44,087 nt of DNA, taken from NCBI GenBank assembly GCA_020630805.1, contig JAHDIM010000006.1:9293-53379 (forward strand), in the 5' to 3' direction. The position numbers and the translations under genes are program-made. The notes below the pieces were generated by a model. It was not told where the DNA came from, did no database searches, and saw only the letters and a list, made by a program, of their open reading frames with translations. The stretch's first letter is position 1. Each line of letters starts with the position of its first letter. Source of the stretch: Anaerolineales bacterium. Lineage in GTDB: Bacteria > Chloroflexota > Anaerolineae > Anaerolineales > UBA6668. This document shows, in pieces, positions 1,501-41,571 of this stretch.

Positions 1501-2437
1501 AAACAGTATTCTCCAACGCGCCGCCGCGTTTATACCGCTCCAAATTATCCCCAAAGAAATTCGCAAAAATTGTCGGCCACTTTTGTACTTGGTCTGAGCT
1601 GTGCGGCGTAATGTAGACATTTTCGATGTCCCACAATGGACTATCTTCAGGCAGTGGCTCAACCTCAAACACATCTAGATAAGCGGCTTTGAAATGCCCC
1701 TCGTTCAGCACTTGGATCAGTGCAGCCTCATCCACAACTTTGCCGCGCGCAGTGTTGATGAAAATAGAATCAGGCTTACAAGCCCGGAGCATTGCGTCAT
1801 CAAACATCTTGTCGGTTTCTGGCGTGTGTCGGACGTGTAGCGAAATCACATCAGCTTCGCCAATCACCTCGGTAAGTTGATCTGGCGTTACCAGTCGATC
1901 CACGCTTGGGTGTGGCGTATCACTGCGGCGAACGCCAATCACATTCATTCCCAAGGCTTTGGCGTTGTGGGCAACCCAGCCGCCAATTGCGCCTAGGCCG
2001 ACAATCAATATGGTTTGGCCGACCAATGGCTTCCAAGGGTTGACCTTCCAAGTATGAGTGGCTTGCTGTTTACGATACAAAAATGTCTCATTGTTCAGCG
2101 CGATCATTGCACCAGTGACGGTTTCGGCAAGGTAACGGGCCAGCACACCAGCGCAGTTGGTGACGGTCACACGATCAGCGTCCCACTCGCCAACGTGCTC
2201 ATAACCAGAGCCACCGACCTGTAACCAGCGTACGCTTGGGCATTGCACAATCTGTGGGTGATATTTGCCGGGAAAGCCAGTTTCTTTGACTGAAAATACG
2301 GCTTCTGGCTGGTGGGCTGCTAGGGCCGCCCCAAGTGTTTCAGGGTCATCGACATAACAGATGTCATCGTCTGGAAAACGCGCGTCCAAGATGGCGCGAA
2401 ATTCTTCAGTTCCGTGATGAGCAATTAGAATTTTCAT
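1499..2437 (-). CDS. D-2-hydroxyacid dehydrogenase (NAD(P)-dependent)
   Basis: This 312-residue protein has the full D-isomer-specific 2-hydroxyacid dehydrogenase architecture. An N-terminal substrate-domain segment is followed by a Rossmann domain with VGLGAIGGWVAH around residues 145-156. The catalytic residues are visible: Arg in NTARGKVVDE, Glu in DVFEVEPLP, and His in ITPHSS. It should reduce a 2-keto acid such as glyoxylate or hydroxypyruvate, or oxidise the matching D-hydroxyacid. The setting, beside ureide catabolism that can release glyoxylate, makes a glyoxylate or hydroxypyruvate reductase role attractive, but this is inference. Its stop codon TGA is contributed by the repeat at 1433-1500. 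Confidence 0.9.
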   Translation of the reverse strand: MKILIAHHGTEEFRAILDARFPDDDICYVDDPETLGAALAAHQPEAVFSVKETGFPGKYHPQIVQCPSVRWLQVGGSGYEHVGEWDADRVTVTNCAGVLARYLAETVTGAMIALNNETFLYRKQQATHTWKVNPWKPLVGQTILIVGLGAIGGWVAHNAKALGMNVIGVRRSDTPHPSVDRLVTPDQLTEVIGEADVISLHVRHTPETDKMFDDAMLRACKPDSIFINTARGKVVDEAALIQVLNEGHFKAAYLDVFEVEPLPEDSPLWDIENVYITPHSSDQVQKWPTIFANFFGDNLERYKRGGALENTV

Positions 2438-2442
2438 GGTGT

Positions 2443-2593
2443 GGTTTGCTGGTTGTTGGGTTTGGTAGTTGGTTAGTGAGGGCTAGGCGGTTTATGCTGT
2501 CTTTGGCGGCTAAGTCACGAGTGCTACATTGGTTGGTTAGGACCTTGGGTTACCTGTGACCACTAACCAACCAACAAACAATCAAACGAACCC
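2443..2593. repeat. Inverted-repeat element, AACCAACCAAC family (copy a)
   Basis: GT-rich tracts (TTGCTGGTTGTTGGG, TTGGTTGGTTAGGACC) on the left are answered by CACTAACCAACCAACAAAC on the right, so the region can fold into a long imperfect hairpin. It fills the space between the dehydrogenase start and the urate oxidase stop. The core (ccttgggt..gaccactaaccaac) is shared with the copy inside the glycine riboswitch at 36763-36860; another relative is at 33980-34103. Confidence 0.75.
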
Positions 2594-2594
2594 A

Positions 2595-3434
2595 CTATCT
2601 TGTCACTGTGCCCTCAATGTACCCATGCGGCTCATCGGCTGGGAAGAAAATTTCATTCTTGTTTTCAATGCCAAAGCGACCAAGATCAAATGGGAAATTG
2701 TGGACGTTGGGCATCACCATATGAATGCTTTCGATGGCTCTGCATGCTTCAAGTGCAGCGGTACCCATCGCAAACAGGGTGTGTTGTAAAGATTCGCTTT
2801 GATGATCTGCAAAGCATTGCAACAGGGCGGTGCGAATTATGGTGTAACAGTGATTGTAGTCAACGCCGCTGGTGTTATAACGCCACGTGGCAGTCAGTTT
2901 TGTTGCCATAATCCGGTCCCGTTCTTCGGGCAGCACAGTGTATTCATCTTTCAAAAAGCCAACAAATGCGGAGTCGGTGGTTTTGAGAATTGGCAGCTCA
3001 GCAATGCCGCCGGTAATGGCCATTGAATCTTTGCTGCGAATAACTTGAGTGGTGCGCAACTCTTGGCTAGCGCCGTTGTAGGCAAAGGGATGGGCATCGC
3101 CTGCGAATGACATCCGTTGCCAGTCACGCATTGAAATGCTGACATCGGCTTGTGTTGCTGCGGGGGCATGCTTTAAATAATGTTCACTTAGATCTAGCGC
3201 AAACGCTTCAGGCGAGCTAAGACTGTGTGATTTCGCCAACGCATACACGGTATTTTTGATTGTGTCCGTAGGGAGTACGTCTTTGTTATCACCGTCAATG
3301 TAGGTGGCTTCGAAAGCACCGTCTAGCAGGGCATCAACGGTATATTCTGTGAACACATGATGCGTTTCAAGACGGGTGATTTTTGAGAGGCGTACACGGG
3401 CTTTCCCGTAGCGATTAGATGAAAGCGTTGGCAT
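2595..3434 (-). CDS. pucL: Urate oxidase (uricase)
   Basis: This 279-residue protein matches cofactor-independent urate oxidase, which oxidises urate with O2 to 5-hydroxyisourate and H2O2. Family signatures visible in order are NRYGKARVRLSKI near the N-terminus (containing the catalytic Lys), LPTDTIKNTVYALAK (catalytic Thr region), TTDSAFVGFLKDEYTVLPE with MATKLTATWRY in the second T-fold half, and MPNVHNFPFDLGRFG near the C-terminus. Length is slightly below the usual ~300. The ATG at 3434 has an AGGA-type ribosome site upstream. The gene diverges from the allantoinase gene across about 190 bp. There is no fused OHCU decarboxylase here, unlike Bacillus PucL; that domain is fused to allantoinase instead. 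Confidence 0.95.
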   Translation of the reverse strand: MPTLSSNRYGKARVRLSKITRLETHHVFTEYTVDALLDGAFEATYIDGDNKDVLPTDTIKNTVYALAKSHSLSSPEAFALDLSEHYLKHAPAATQADVSISMRDWQRMSFAGDAHPFAYNGASQELRTTQVIRSKDSMAITGGIAELPILKTTDSAFVGFLKDEYTVLPEERDRIMATKLTATWRYNTSGVDYNHCYTIIRTALLQCFADHQSESLQHTLFAMGTAALEACRAIESIHMVMPNVHNFPFDLGRFGIENKNEIFFPADEPHGYIEGTVTR

Positions 3435-33979: not shown

Positions 33980-34103
33980 TTTGATGGTTAGGAAGTTGGT
34001 TTCCCCGCCTTTGCGAGGACAAGAGTTTGCTAGTGGGTTATGCATACTCGTGAGAACTAGCCAACCAACAAACCTGCAAACTAACTCACTAACAAACTAA
34101 TCT
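33980..34103. repeat. Inverted-repeat element, AACCAACCAAC family (copy b)
   Basis: It begins right after the arginase stop and ends a base or so before the aminotransferase ATG. GTTTGCTAGTGGGTTATGCA is answered by ACTAGCCAACCAACAAAC, and a second inverted tract ends in CTAACTCACTAACAAAC. The element is related to those at 2443 and 36763. It replaces any normal ribosome-binding site for rocD. Confidence 0.7.
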
Positions 34104-34104
34104 C

Positions 34105-35300: not shown

Positions 35301-35453
35301 ATCTAACGCGGAGACGCAGAGATCGCGGAGATTTTTTGCCCTATTCGACAAAGCTCAGGCAAGCGCGGACGAGAGAGACGGACGTTTTCGTTTTATCCGC
35401 CTTGTCCGCCTCGTCAGCGGCTAAATTTCCCTCTGCGTCTCCGCGTTGAATCT
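35301..35453. repeat. Inverted-repeat element, CTCTGCGTCTCCGCG family
   Basis: AACGCGGAGACGCAGAG (35305-35321) and CTCTGCGTCTCCGCGTT (35431-35447) are a perfect 17-bp inverted pair at the two ends. An inner pair (GCGGACGAG, then TTGTCCGCCTCGTC) can also fold. It fills the rocD-ctlX gap and would make a long hairpin in the shared mRNA. Confidence 0.85.
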
Positions 35454-35469
35454 TCAGGGGAGGCTCAAA

Positions 35470-36399
35470 ATGAACTATCGCCACATCCAAGCGCCGACAT
35501 CGGCTGTGATGATTAGGCCGCATCGGTTTACGGTGAATCCGCAGACGGCAGCGGACAATGCGTTTCAGGCCGTTGCAACAGACTTGTCAGATGCTGAAGT
35601 GTCAAGACGCGCATTAGATGAATTTGATCAGGCGGTGACAAGTCTACGTGATTGCGGCATGTGCATTCATGTCTTTGATGATTTTGGCAACCGCGAAACG
35701 CCTGATTCGGTGTTTCCTAACAACTGGTTTTCAACCCATCATGGCGGACGTGTGGCGCTGTTTCCAATGTACTCGCGTAACCGTCGCCGTGAACGCCGGA
35801 TTGACGTGATTGAAATGCTCAAGCAAACCTATCGCGTGCAAGAGGTGATTGACTACTCTGGCCTTGAGCAAGACGATCTTTTCTTAGAAGGTACCGGTTC
35901 GATGGTGTTCGACCATTTTGAACGCCTTGCCTATGTAAGCAACTCTAATCGCGCTGACCCAATTGTGTTGGAACGCTTCTGCACGGCCTTTGGCTATGAA
36001 CCTATGGCGTTTGATACCGCAGACCGGAAAGGTAATGCAATTTATCACACCAATGTGATGATGAGCATTGGCACCGATTATGCGTTGGTTTGTCTTGAGG
36101 CGATTATCGATCCGGCCCGACGGAATGAAATTGCACAGCGCCTAATCAACAGTGGGCGTGAACTCATTGACTTGCGTTTTGGGCAGGTGGAAGCGTTTGC
36201 TGGTAATACGTTTGAAATGACAGGGGCAGATGGCCGCGTGTTGGTGCTGTCACGGCGTGCATTTGAAATCTTGGGTGACTCGCAAAAGCAGATCATTGAA
36301 AAGAGCGCGACGCTTTTACCACTCAGCATCCCAACCATTGAGTTGGCGGGTGGGTCCATCCGCTGCATGATTGCAGGGATTCACTTAACGCCGAGATGA
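35470..36399 (+). CDS. ctlX: Citrulline hydrolase CtlX-type (amidinotransferase fold)
   Basis: This ~309-residue protein belongs to the guanidino-group-modifying (arginine deiminase/amidinotransferase) superfamily and most resembles CtlX, the citrulline utilisation hydrolase. The N-terminus MIRPHRFTVNPQTAADNAFQ and the segments VFPNNWFSTHHGGRVALFPM, DDLFLEGTGSMVFDH, GNAIYHTNVMMSIG and AFAGNTFEMTG are typical. The C-terminal GSIRCMIAGIHL carries the catalytic Cys. It should release ornithine from citrulline, which the neighbouring aminotransferase uses. I chose ATG 35470 with AGGGGAGG upstream. The assignment to citrulline rather than another guanidino compound rests on family resemblance and context. 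Confidence 0.87.
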   Translation: MNYRHIQAPTSAVMIRPHRFTVNPQTAADNAFQAVATDLSDAEVSRRALDEFDQAVTSLRDCGMCIHVFDDFGNRETPDSVFPNNWFSTHHGGRVALFPMYSRNRRRERRIDVIEMLKQTYRVQEVIDYSGLEQDDLFLEGTGSMVFDHFERLAYVSNSNRADPIVLERFCTAFGYEPMAFDTADRKGNAIYHTNVMMSIGTDYALVCLEAIIDPARRNEIAQRLINSGRELIDLRFGQVEAFAGNTFEMTGADGRVLVLSRRAFEILGDSQKQIIEKSATLLPLSIPTIELAGGSIRCMIAGIHLTPR

Positions 36400-36458
36400 G
36401 TTGAAACTGTCAACTGCCAGGCCCTGCAAAAATGGGACCCATTCGACTTCGCTCAGGG

Positions 36459-36545
36459 CAAGTACTGAAAACACAGATTGCACGGTTTGGGTACTTACGT
36501 CAAAGCTAATAAAGATACACATCCGTGTTTTCCGTGTCCATCAAC
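36459..36545. repeat. Degenerate ACACGGAT-type intergenic repeat
   Basis: AAAACACAGATTGCACGG on the left and CACATCCGTGTTTTCCGTGT on the right can pair imperfectly. Preceding it is TTCGACTTCGCTCAGGGCAAG, which resembles ATTCGACAAAGCTCAGGCAAG at 35342. Together they look like decayed members of the genome's intergenic repeat families. The rest of 36400-36575 shows no gene. Confidence 0.5.
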
Positions 36546-36575
36546 TTGTGAAAACATTCTCAAAAGTTTGGTTAG

Positions 36576-36604
36576 TTGACATGATTTAACCGCTTTCGTA
36601 CAAT
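36576..36604 (+). promoter_or_regulatory. Sigma70-type promoter of the glycine cleavage operon
   Basis: TTGACA (36576-36581), a 17-bp spacer, then TACAAT (36599-36604) is a near-consensus promoter. Transcription would begin about position 36611, immediately before the first riboswitch aptamer. It is the best promoter match I see in the window. Confidence 0.8.
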
Positions 36605-36611
36605 TTGTTCA

Positions 36612-36895
36612 TCCATAGGGGAGAGCGCTGTCTCAGGACAGACACCGAAGGTGCAAGCTGCTAAAAAAGCGCGGTGAAACTCTCAGGTATCCGGACCTTA
36701 TGGACATTTACCTTATCTGGAAAGTGCTTGTGTAATGCAAGCCACCCACGGTGCAAGTGGGAGCTAGTTTGTTAGTAGATTAGTTTGCTAGTTTGTTGGT
36801 GTAAGCCTTGGGTAACCCAAGACCACTAACCAACTAACCAACTTACCAACCAACCAACTATCCCATCAATCTCTCAGGTTATATGACAGAAAGGG
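36612..36895 (+). promoter_or_regulatory. Tandem glycine riboswitch
   Basis: Aptamer 1 (about 36618-36700) shows GGGGAGAG, a P2 hairpin CTGTC..GACAG, CACCGAAGGTGCAAGC, and AAACTCTCAGGTA..CCGGAC. Aptamer 2 (about 36708-36895) shows CTGGAAAG, P2 GCTTG..CAAGC, CACCCACGGTGCAAG, and ATCTCTCAGGTTATATGACAGAAAGGGG. These are the conserved glycine-riboswitch words in order. A terminator overlaps the 3' strand of aptamer 2 and precedes gcvH, consistent with glycine turning the operon on by preventing termination. A 98-nt repeat is inserted in the P3 stem of aptamer 2 (36763-36860). Confidence 0.95.
36763..36860. repeat. Inverted-repeat element inside riboswitch aptamer 2 (copy c)
   Basis: The element starts GCTAGTTTGTTAGTAG and ends ACCAACCAACCAACTA. 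It can fold on itself through GT-rich and AC-rich arms around TTGGGTAACCCAA. The aptamer's P3 bases TGGGA (36758-36762) and TCCCA (36861-36865) flank it exactly, so it caps P3 as an extended helix. Its core matches the intergenic copy at 2443-2593. Confidence 0.85.
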
Positions 36896-36931
36896 GCGTT
36901 ACACAAAATGTTTTGTGGCGCTCCTTTTTTG
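36893..36931 (+). terminator. Riboswitch expression-platform terminator
   Basis: GGGGCG (36893-36898) pairs with CGCTCC, ACAAAA pairs with TTTTGT across a TG loop, and a run of six T follows (36925-36930). The 5' strand uses the G-rich end of aptamer 2, so ligand-bound aptamer and terminator should compete. Confidence 0.88.
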
Positions 36932-36982: not shown

Positions 36983-37363
36983 ATGACTAATCCTACCGAT
37001 TTGCGCTATACCGAGTCCGATGAATGGGTTCGACTAGAAGGTGACGTGGCTACGATTGGTGTCACGGACTATGCTCAAGACGCCCTTTCAGATGTGGTCT
37101 ATCTTGAACTGCCAAGCGTTGGCGACACGTTCGATGCTGGTGAAGAGTTTGGCACGATTGAATCTGTCAAAGCTGCCTCAGACCTGCATTGTCCGGTTGC
37201 TGGTGAAGTGATCGAAGTCAATTCAGACTTAGAAGACGCGCCAGAAACTGTCAATGAAAGCCCATTCGGCGACGGCTGGATGATCAAGATCAAGGTCAGC
37301 GATGCATCGGCACTTGAACAATTGATGGACGCGGCAGCCTACACGGCGTTCCGCGCTGAGTAA
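36983..37363 (+). CDS. gcvH: Glycine cleavage system H protein
   Basis: This 126-residue lipoyl-carrier protein shuttles the aminomethyl intermediate between the P, T and L proteins. Typical segments are RYTESDEWVRLEGDVATIGV, TDYAQDALSDVVYLELP, and EEFGTIESVKAASDLHCPVA, in which the Lys after SV is the lipoylated residue. I chose ATG 36983, since GAGGAA lies upstream; the in-frame ATG at 36908 falls inside the riboswitch terminator and would add a non-homologous leader. It is 20 bases ahead of the gcvP-gcvT fusion. Confidence 0.96.
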   Translation: MTNPTDLRYTESDEWVRLEGDVATIGVTDYAQDALSDVVYLELPSVGDTFDAGEEFGTIESVKAASDLHCPVAGEVIEVNSDLEDAPETVNESPFGDGWMIKIKVSDASALEQLMDAAAYTAFRAE

Positions 37364-37383: not shown

Positions 37384-40300
37384 ATGCTTGCACCAACCGC
37401 TTCTCCTCGTTCGAATACTCAAAACCCAAACTTAGGCCTCCAGGACACGTTTGCGCGACGTCACCTTGGCATTGGCTCACCTGACTTGCATCGCATGCTT
37501 GAAGTGCTGGATGTCGAGTCGTTAGATGAGTTAATTGCGCAAACGGTCCCGGCTGAAATTCTAGGCAAAGGCATCAGTGAAGTGCCTGCTGCCTTGACTG
37601 AGTCTGAATTATTAGCTGAACTGCAATCCCTCGCTGACCTAAATCAGCAGCACCGCAGTTTTATTGGACAGGGTTACTACACCTGTCTGACCCCACCTGT
37701 CATTCAACGCAATATCTTGGAAAATCCAGGTTGGTATACGCAATATACGCCGTACCAACCGGAAATTGCCCAAGGCCGTCTGGAAGCGCTGCTCAATTTC
37801 CAGACTATGGTCAGTGACCTGACTGGGATGGATATTGCAAATGCATCGTTGTTAGATGAAGCCACAGCTGCCGCAGAGGCAATGCTGTTGGCGCACCGTT
37901 CCCGCAAACGAAAATCGACAGCGAATGCTTTTTTAGTCGCAGCAGATGTCTTCCCGCAAACCATAGCAGTCATGCAGGGTCGCGCTGAACCGCTCGGCAT
38001 CGATGTGATTGTCACTGACCATGCTGACTTTGAAATTGACGCCAACGTCTTTGGGGCATTGGTGCAATATCCAGCCGCCAGCGGCACGATCAATACGTAT
38101 GATGCGCTTGCTGAAGAACTCCATGCTGTCAAAGCCCAATTGGTCGTTGCTGCTGATCTACTTGCGCTCACGATGTTGCGCGAACCAGCAGCCTTTGGCG
38201 CTGATGTTGTGGTCGGTAACACCCAACGCTTTGGGATGCCGCTTGGCTATGGTGGTCCGCACGCTGCTTACATTGCCGTTCGTGACAAATTGAAACGTGC
38301 CTTGCCAGGGCGGCTTGTGGGTGTTTCTCGCGATGTTGATGGCAAAGCTGCCTATCGCTTAGCACTCCAAGCGCGAGAGCAGCACATTCGTCGCGAAAGC
38401 GCCACGAGCAACGTTTGTACCGCGCAAGCATTGCCAGCCATTGTTGCCTCAATGTACGGGGTCTATCACGGCCCAGACGGTATCCGCGCGATTGCTGAAC
38501 GTGTGCATTTGTTGACACAGATGGCGCAATCTTCCCTCAAGAGTTTGGGTTATACCGTCTCCGATAATGTGTTTGACACATTACATATCTCAGATGGCCC
38601 CGTCTCTGCTAGCAATTTGCTGGCGCGTGCCGAAGCCGCTGGACTCAACTTGGCAAACATTTCTATGGATACGGTCGGTGTCAGCTTTGATGAAGCCACA
38701 ACCACGCAAGATCTGCAAGCCGTACTTGGTGTGTTTGCACCTGAAACATTGCGCATTGACATCAATGCGTTGGCGGCTGAAGTTGATGTTGCGATCCCCG
38801 CTGAACACGTGCGGACCTCAGACTTCATGATGCACCCTGTGTTCAATAGCCATCACTCAGAAACTGAGCTGTTGCGCTACATGCAAAAGTTGCAAAACCG
38901 CGACTTGTCGTTGACGCATTCCATGATCCCGCTCGGCTCGTGCACGATGAAGCTCAACGCAACCGCTGAAATGATGCCAATCACATGGCCGGGCTTTGCC
39001 AACATTCACCCGTTTGTGCCAGTTGATCAAACCAAGGGCTATGCTGAGCTGTTTGAACGCTTGGAGCGCTGGCTGTCTGACATTACTGGCTTTGCGGCGA
39101 CCTCATTACAACCAAATTCTGGCGCACAGGGCGAATATGCTGGGATGCTTGTCATTCGTGCCTATCACCAGTCCAATGGCGAAGGGCACCGCGATGTCTG
39201 TCTCATCCCAAGCTCGGCGCATGGCACAAACCCAGCCAGTGCGGTTATGGCCGGGATGAAAGTTGTCATTGTCAAAACCGATGATGAAGGCAACATTGAC
39301 GTTGATGATCTGCGTGCCTTAGCAGAAGAGCATGCCGACAATTTGTCAGCCTTGATGGTGACCTATCCATCGACACATGGCGTGTTTGAAGCGACCATTC
39401 GTGAAGTTTGCGAAATTGTGCATACCAACGGCGGCCAAGTTTATATGGACGGCGCCAACATGAATGCGCAGGTTGGTTTGACCAGTCCGGGTGAAATTGG
39501 CGCGGATGTGTGTCACTTGAACCTGCACAAAACCTTCTGCATTCCACACGGAGGTGGCGGTCCGGGCATGGGGCCAATTGGTGTTGCTGCCCACCTCGCA
39601 CCGTTCTTGCCAGGGCATCCAGTTATTCCAACCGGTGGCGACCAAGCAGTGTTACCTGTCAATGCCGCCCCTTGGAGTAGTGCGCTAATTTTGACCATCC
39701 CGTATGCCTATATTCGCATGATGGGACCAGATGGCCTGGAAGACGCCACCAAGATCGCGATCTTGAATGGCAACTACATTGCCAAGCGCTTGGAAAATCA
39801 CTATCCAGTGCTTTATAAGGGTGACAATGGCCGCGTGGCACACGAATGTATTCTGGACTTGCGCGACCTGACCGATGAAACCCATGTCACGGTTGAAGAC
39901 GTTGCCAAGCGTCTGATGGACTTTGGCTTCCACGCACCAACCATGTCATGGCCAGTTGCTGGCACGCTGATGATTGAGCCAACGGAAAGCGAAAGCTTGG
40001 CAGAGTTGGATCGTTTCTGTGACGCGATGATTGCCATTCGCGCAGAAATCGCAGCGATTGCAGACGGCAAAGCCGACTACGAAACCAGCGCGTTACACAA
40101 TGCACCGCATACGGCACAACAGCTCATGAGCAGCGATTGGGATCGACCATACTCACGCGATGACGCTGCCTATCCAGCCGATTGGTTGCGTGATAGCAAG
40201 TTCTGGCCGCACGTTGGGCGCATCGACAATGTCTGGGGTGACCGCAACTTGGTCTGTGCTTGTCTACCAATTGAAAGTTATAGTGACACGGTTGCTGACG

Positions 40301-41571
40301 CTGCACCTGCGAAGAAAGCACCAGCGGGCTTGCCTGACTTTGAATGGGTGCCGGTTTCAGACATGGAACTCAAGCAAACTGCGCTACACGCGAATCACGT
40401 TGCACTTGGTGGCAAAATGATCCCGTTTGCGGGTTACGACATGCCGGTTTGGTACAAATCTGTCTCTGCTGAACACAACGCCGTCCGTGAATCTGCTGGC
40501 TTGTTTGATGTCAGTCACATGGGTGTTTGGCAACTTACTGGTCCATCCGCTGCAGAGTTCCTGAATCAACTGGTTGGCAACAATGTAGACAAGCTCAAAG
40601 TGGGGCGCTCAATGTACTCCCATCTGATGCTGCCGAATGGCCACGTCCTAGATGACCTGTTGATGTATCGCCTCGGTGATGAGCATTTCATGCTGGTCGT
40701 CAATGCCTCTAACGATGCGAAAGACCAAGCTTGGCTGCAAGCCGTCTTGGCTGGTGAAGTCAAGGTTGATGAATCTGATCCAAATCGCACCTTGTCTGGT
40801 CGCGATAGTGTGGAATTTGTTGACCTGCGCTCTGAAACGGCTGGCGCGGCGCGGCGCAATGTGATCGCATTGCAAGGGCCAAACAGCAACGCGATTTTGA
40901 ATGCAATGGGCGGCGATTTGGAAGCAGTCAATGCCATGCGCCGCAACCGCATTGTCAGTGCCACTATTGGGGGCTTTGAACTGATTGTTGTGCGTACTGG
41001 CTACACTGGCGAAAAGCTAGGCTATGAATTGTTTGCGCATCCTGATCAACTGCCTGCGCTGTGGGACGCAGTTATGGCTGCTGGTGAAGCGCATGGTCTC
41101 CTGCCGTGTGGTCTGGCATCGCGTGACAGCTTACGTATTGAAGCCGGGTTGCCATTGTATGGTCTTGAACTCGCAGGTGACTTAGATCTTGGTGTTGATG
41201 ACGCTGGCATGGGCTGGGCGGTCAAGACGGACAAGGACTGGTTTATTGGCAAAGATGCTTTTGTCGCGCATGACGCTGAACGTACAATGGAAGTTGTTCA
41301 GTTTGCCTTTGAAAGCAAGGGCATCCGTGCTCCGCACTATGGCGATCCTGTCATCGACAAGCGTGGCAAGGTAATTGGCAACGTGACTTCAGCGGCTCCC
41401 GGTGGCGATGGCTTCCTGCGTGGGCTGGCGTACGTCAGTAAGAAAGCTGCGAAGCCAGATGCAATCATCGGGATCTTCTCAAAGGTTGATGAATCGCTTG
41501 AGCCTTCCAAGACCGAAGCTTCCGTCGGTGAAAAACTACTGATCCCTGCTTGGGGCAAGATTGTTGGCTAA
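37384..41571 (+). CDS. gcvP-gcvT: GcvP-GcvT fusion: glycine decarboxylase joined to aminomethyltransferase
   Basis: One 1395-residue frame encodes two glycine-cleavage enzymes. Residues ~15-960 are full-length P protein: [17 protein letters not shown], the N-terminal half with [20 protein letters not shown], the C-terminal half with [17 protein letters not shown], and the PLP Lys in [20 protein letters not shown] near residue 714. A linker rich in Ala, Pro and Lys ([14 protein letters not shown]) leads into T protein, residues ~990-1395. Its motifs are [32 protein letters not shown], the Asp pair in [11 protein letters not shown], and [15 protein letters not shown] decarboxylates glycine onto the H lipoyl arm; T releases ammonia and makes methylene-THF. 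No stop, frameshift or internal start interrupts the join. L protein is not in the window. Confidence 0.96.

Follow-up and report, generated by a model that had tools for sequence, protein, structure and literature searches.

A dispersed genomic palindrome in the aptamer-2 P3b hairpin of a gcv tandem glycine riboswitch, and long P3b palindromes in other families of the order

Introduction

How can a riboswitch aptamer hold about a hundred bases of repetitive DNA, and how might they have arrived there? The question is raised by the leader of the glycine cleavage (gcv) operon in a window of 44,087 nt, the whole stretch of DNA analysed here, which belongs to a genome designated G000, that of an uncultured Anaerolineales-type bacterium (Chloroflexota). 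A preliminary description of the window had recognised a tandem glycine riboswitch with intact promoter and terminator, in which 98 self-complementary extra bases separate TGGGA from TCCCA in aptamer 2, and had proposed that a repeat with relatives elsewhere in the window landed there without breaking the fold.

Results and discussion

Anatomy of the gcv leader

The segment 36608-36929 is a tandem glycine riboswitch of predicted ON type located 5' of gcvH. Both aptamers score above the RF00504 gathering cut-off of 32 bits, and, in agreement with the preliminary description, the promoter and terminator are intact (Table 1). The first cmscan run listed aptamer 1 without aptamer 2, probably owing to a 2-base overlap of the two; aptamer 2 by itself scores 35.2 bits, and 104 residues not displayed in the alignment fall in its terminal P3b loop. 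The genes downstream are those of glycine metabolism, gcvH being followed by a gcvP-gcvT fusion.

The expression platform is coupled to aptamer-2 P1, as the 3' strand of P1 overlaps the 5' arm of the terminator, and the calculated energy of the terminator changes from -20.9 to -9.8 kcal/mol once the shared strand is taken out. Glycine binding would stabilise aptamer-2 P1, and given that its 3' strand CAGAAAGG is also the 5' arm of the terminator, glycine should give read-through. Hence, the leader is predicted from its anatomy to be an ON switch that would control gcvH and gcvPT.

Table 1. Features of the gcv riboswitch locus and related repeat copies in the window.
Feature	Position	Strand	Evidence or remark
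Copy of the same palindrome family	2436..2599	.	78% over 71 nt against the insert core
Partial copy of the repeat, intergenic gap 33980-34104	34064..34099	-	genome search
Sigma70-like promoter of the gcv operon, TTGACA-17 nt-TACAAT	36576..36604	+	sequence; intact
Glycine aptamer 1 (RF00504)	36608..36708	+	58.3 bits, cmscan
Glycine aptamer 2 (RF00504), with long insert	36707..36899	+	41.5 bits, genome search (G000:C92:45999-46191)
Aptamer-2 P1, 5' strand, CTTATCTG	36712..36719	+	CM alignment
TGGGA, 5' side of P3b base	36758..36762	+	sequence
Inserted palindromic repeat, 98 nt, 8-nt periodic (YTAGTTTG type)	36763..36860	+	own-genome matches, periodicity, self-folding
Central core of the repeat, CCTTGGGTAACCCAAG, common to several other genomic copies	36806..36821	+	sequence
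TCCCA, 3' side of P3b base	36861..36865	+	sequence
Aptamer-2 P1, 3' strand, CAGAAAGG, overlapping the terminator 5' arm	36887..36894	+	CM alignment
Intrinsic terminator hairpin and U tract, 5' arm common with aptamer-2 P1	36888..36929	+	-20.9 kcal/mol
gcvH (glycine cleavage H protein), regulated gene	36983..37363	+	PF01597, 149.9 bits
gcvP-gcvT fusion, downstream operon gene	37384..41571	+	PF02347, PF21478 and PF01571 in a single 1395-aa ORF

Several other features were noted upstream. An arginine-catabolism cluster (DDAH-type, arginase, class-III aminotransferase) precedes the gcv operon, and includes a full-length match to PF19420 (DDAH, eukaryotic type) at 35446-36399, beside the arginase and class-III aminotransferase genes. 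A perfect 17-nt inverted repeat (AACGCGGAGACGCAGAG / CTCTGCGTCTCCGCGTT, spacing 109 nt) lies at 35305-35447, between the aminotransferase and DDAH-like genes. Upstream of the promoter, at 36437-36460, is the stretch CCCATTCGACTTCGCTCAGGGC, and the related CCCTGAGCGAAGTCGAAG was found in aptamer-2 P3b of genome G006, which suggests that this hairpin may have received yet another type of repeat. The segment TTGGTTAGTTG at 36568-36578, which extends into the gcv promoter at its -35 box, resembles a unit of the repeat family considered below and has its complement within the insert, at 36831-36841.

The insert and its repeat family

Exactly 98 extra nucleotides lie between TGGGA and TCCCA of aptamer 2, as originally counted, and they are self-complementary: the isolated insert folds at -35.5 kcal/mol, with a z value of -3.5 against dinucleotide shuffles. 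Alignment to the Rfam covariance model places them in the terminal loop of P3b, on the far side of the conserved A-rich GCAA/AATC internal loop and distal to the core, and not in a core element. The insert also shows an 8-nt periodicity (lag-8 self-match 0.58), a property that goes beyond the preliminary description. Matches of the insert to MIR6135 and MIR844 were far below gathering scores and were rejected as a by-product of any long imperfect hairpin.

The similarity of the insert core to a repeat near 2443-2593, reported earlier, proved to be part of a wider pattern. In addition to the two further copies in the window (Table 1), a 117-nt stretch around the insert gave 57 alignments in the G000 genome at E<=1, plus and minus hits of one palindrome being counted separately. 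The insert matches other G000 copies over 80-110 nt, and a core CTTGGGTNACC(CAAG) is common to many of them. All 14 of the other copies that were checked lie outside predicted ORFs, most of them 10 nt or less from an ORF. The copy at locus L054 and the riboswitch insert have in common a 26-nt run, GCCTTGGGTAACCCAAGACCACTAAC, which is non-periodic and includes the central core, and this argues for copying. With the same query at E<=0.001, 13 matches were found in genome G001 and 6 in G002, and none in eight other, more distant genomes searched. As judged by these matches, the G000 repeat dialect is genus-specific.

Presence and absence in close relatives

Genome G001, of the same genus, likewise has a repeat of the G000 type at this site, with a different central core. 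The P3b of G002, also of this genus, is an unrelated 30-nt hairpin and that of G003, of the same family, a 17-nt hairpin, both without the long insert. In a leader tree calculated without the insert columns, G002 falls outside the pair G000 and G001. The simplest reading is a gain in the lineage of G000 and G001; loss or replacement of the insert in G002 is a possible alternative. An ancestral origin of the insert as part of the aptamer is rejected in view of G002 and G003 and of the short P3b in most relatives, and the view that the repeat is an addition to the riboswitch stands in this respect.

Survey of tandem riboswitches in the order

A total of 121 tandem riboswitches of the order were parsed, 119 of them cleanly. 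They were sampled through their aptamer-1 hits, the best-scoring of which were taken, and a riboswitch that an insert had broken would escape this sampling. The aptamer-1 values obtained for G032 and G021 (163 and 64) are parser artefacts, the 5' word having been matched too early. Aptamer-2 P3b has a median length of 19 nt, and in 13 of the 119 clean tandems it is an 81-111-nt short-period palindrome. The genomes concerned belong to three families, namely f1 (G000 and G001), f3 (G005) and f11 (G026, G038, G208, G223, G243, G259, G291, G303, G376 and G392), and the presence of different genome-specific repeats in the same hairpin of other families was likewise absent from the preliminary description. 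P3b of intermediate length (41-54 nt) exists as well, and the long P3b of G045 and G344 (79 nt) was kept out of the octamer set. Aptamer-1 P3b measures 12-29 nt in all clean cases and never exceeds 29 nt. The segment comprising the linker and P1 hardly varies, apart from one outlier of 62 nt, and P2 segments span 16-54 nt. Several f13 (g23) genomes (loci L011, L019, L075 and L091) apparently have a single recognisable glycine aptamer and not a tandem.

All 13 inserts exceed shuffled sequences in self-complementarity (z -3.5 to -7.8). An 8-nt period is found in 12 of them, with lag-8 matches of 0.44-0.61 versus about 0.2-0.3 at most other lags; those of G291 and G208 match at lag 9 as well as lag 8. 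The remaining insert, that of G005, has a 7-nt period (lag-7 match 0.61). At least four repeat dialects are represented: YTAGTTTG (f1), GATTGCT (f3), TAGTCNNN (f11) and TAGTTTGG (G208). Each is found at other places in the genome that carries it, the G005 insert giving 41 alignments and the G208 insert 14, and the TAGTC type recurring sparsely. The TAGTC insert of G223 has just 0-4 full-length alignments per genome, though arrays are many by pattern. Counted in this way, the nine f11 genomes with TAGTC inserts have 4-310 TAGTC arrays each and fourteen f11 genomes without such inserts 0-8 (Mann-Whitney p=7e-5, phylogeny ignored). The repeat-rich genomes G006, G012 and G027, of other families, lack such a riboswitch insert, and repeat load alone is therefore not decisive.

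On the leader tree, which is weakly supported, eight changes of the insert label are needed. Counted by family, the inserts require three or more independent acquisitions, or else many losses. In a wider search, nine tandem riboswitches in named GcvH-bearing loci had no long P3b (maximum 37 nt), and TPP riboswitches in the same genomes (107-114 nt) had no inserts.

Folding and turnover of the insert

The proposal that the repeat landed without breaking the fold was borne out at the level of secondary-structure energetics. The native-constrained fold was calculated to lie 19.1 kcal/mol above the unconstrained minimum (MFE) when the insert is present and 19.5 kcal/mol above it when the insert is removed, and of about 80 expected pairings of insert bases, 78 are inside the insert and 1.8 outside. 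By the energy-gap measure, the insert is predicted neither to help nor to harm folding, and on these secondary-structure energies it is probably structurally neutral.

Of 110 insert positions, 31 differ between G000 and G001, and the two inserts fold at -35.8 and -34.8 kcal/mol, respectively. Ten of the 41 pairs in the G000 insert are broken in G001, compared with 15.6 expected by chance (a value as low arises in about 2% of random placements). Pairs changed on both sides number 2 versus 1.4 expected, i.e. there is no compensatory excess. Between G223 and G259, the insert has 5 substitutions in 91 positions versus 2 in 560 outside it (p=0.0008). Such fast turnover, with pairing retained to a modest degree, is more easily reconciled with a hairpin that is tolerated than with one under precise selection.

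Origin of the insert and choice of site

The best explanation of the whole, which is probably correct, is that self-folding genomic repeats have been captured again and again by a peripheral helix that is permissive to them. The permissive site would be the outer end of aptamer-2 P3b, past the conserved A-rich internal loop, and lineage-specific short-period palindromic repeats would have been captured there repeatedly. In the genus of G000, a copy of the dispersed octamer-periodic intergenic palindrome is envisaged to have entered, merely lengthening P3b because the palindrome folds on itself. Neither a target-site duplication nor a mobilising enzyme was identified for the insert.

Aptamer 2 would be the one used, and not aptamer 1, given that aptamer 1 is probably under stronger constraint in glycine-cleavage leaders. 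In glycine-cleavage leaders of Bacilli, it is aptamer 1 that is conserved, and aptamer 2 may be reduced to a ghost aptamer (PMC6944388). In the present analysis the conserved words of aptamer 2 were likewise less conserved than those of aptamer 1, a difference that would fit relaxed constraint on aptamer 2. The cryo-EM structure of the V. cholerae switch has conserved P1 and P3 and variable P2 and P4, and adenines of the P3 loops form contacts between the aptamers (PMC12060979). We read P4 of that structure as the P3b tip here.

The hairpin could instead have grown in place, a short P3b having gained 7-8-nt units through slippage or template switching, in which case the similarity to genomic repeats would reflect shared unit composition. 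The strong 7-8-nt periodicity, the intermediate P3b lengths and the much faster divergence of the G223/G259 insert than of its flanks would all be in keeping with such growth. So would the different central core of G001 and the differences between insert arms of close relatives, exemplified by the G026 and G243 inserts, which have their 3' arms in common and not their 5' arms. However, growth in place does not readily account for the non-periodic run, central core included, that the G000 insert has in common with a copy elsewhere, for matches to other copies over 80-110 nt, or for the use in each riboswitch of the dialect of that genome. As an explanation of the whole it is unlikely, although slippage at the site may account for part of the insert arms.

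A role for the long hairpin is another matter to be considered alongside capture by a permissive helix. In a combined form, aptamer-2 P3b of the gcv glycine riboswitches of the order would be a recurrent capture site, each lineage using its own repeat dialect, and in some lineages the long hairpin would be kept as a tuner of the switch, through terminator delay or RNase III processing; this extension is quite improbable. Recruitment of the extended P3b for function outright, either to delay the polymerase in reaching the terminator or as a double-stranded RNase III site, and so to tune the response to glycine, is more doubtful still. It would suit the confinement of long P3b to aptamer 2, its recurrence in three families, and the self-complementarity kept between G000 and G001 despite their substitutions, with fewer pairs broken than expected. 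Yet the close relatives G002, G013 and G094 lack a long P3b, the insert changes fast, compensatory double changes are not in excess, and the same repeats occupy many unrelated intergenic sites.

An assembly or binning artefact, in which a chimeric join placed the repeat in the leader, might be suspected because G000 is a draft of 500 contigs with 6.8% contamination, but is made very unlikely by the independent G001 assembly with the same site and repeat type, the flanks being continuous and similar inserts occurring in few-contig assemblies (G223, 4 contigs).

Comparison with known systems

The G000 leader resembles other tandem glycine riboswitches (RF00504) upstream of gcv in its two aptamers, conserved words, terminator platform and downstream gcvH and gcvPT genes. 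It differs in aptamer-2 P3b, which is 11-30 nt in most relatives whereas that of G000 is about 110 nt and made of a genomic repeat. No direct precedent for a repeat insert in a riboswitch was found in the open-access literature, the coverage of which is incomplete.

REP/RAYT elements carry a GTAG/CGTC tag and have an associated tyrosine transposase. Like REP elements and other small palindromic mobile repeats (PMC3733652, PMC2229807), the G000 repeats are intergenic, dispersed and palindromic, with tens of copies; unlike REP elements, they are longer (60-160 nt) and built of degenerate 8-nt units.

A closer parallel for repeats inside a structured RNA is P6b of the Nostoc tRNA-Leu(UAA) group I intron, a variable stem-loop of 50-126 nt built of heptanucleotide repeats, in which one repeat class has been exchanged for another on several independent occasions (PMC4476775). 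There, as here, short-unit repeats build a variable peripheral stem-loop of a structured RNA; the host is a self-splicing intron in a different phylum with 7-nt units, whereas here it is a riboswitch with mainly 8-nt units. In cyanobacterial RNase P RNA, STRR sequences are on record (Vioque 1997, as referenced in PMC2858038), and to the extent of that reference the likeness lies in short tandem repeats inside a structured RNA. The differences are the riboswitch host and the Chloroflexota setting.

RNase P RNA offers a case within the order too. That of G005 is 563 nt long (L337, 1501-2063, minus strand) versus 353 nt in G000, and contains a 108-nt palindrome of 7-nt period (lag-7 match 0.73, -59.3 kcal/mol), placed by cmscan in the terminal loop of an S-domain helix that we read as P12. 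A second insert, of CCCTCTCCC/GGGAGAGGG type, lies elsewhere in the same RNA. The RNase P RNAs of four f11 genomes (G243, G223, G026 and G208; L331, L332, L335 and L336) are 440-488 nt long and, by eye, have CCCTCTCCC-type palindromes near the P12 position. Short-unit periodicity in a peripheral helix is common to the riboswitch inserts of G000 (lag 8, 0.58) and G005 (lag 7, 0.61). The riboswitch and RNase P cases, taken together, suggest that short-period palindromic repeats find a general refuge in the peripheral helices of structured RNAs.

What is new relative to the cyanobacterial precedent is the riboswitch host, the restriction to aptamer 2, and the identity of the insert dialect with the genome dialect. 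The order thus provides a natural, repeated insertion experiment, in which a single hairpin of the switch holds unrelated self-folding repeats in three or more families, with closely related insert-free controls. It makes directly testable which parts of a riboswitch tolerate insertion, what favours aptamer 2 over aptamer 1, and whether the kinetic window is set by leader length.
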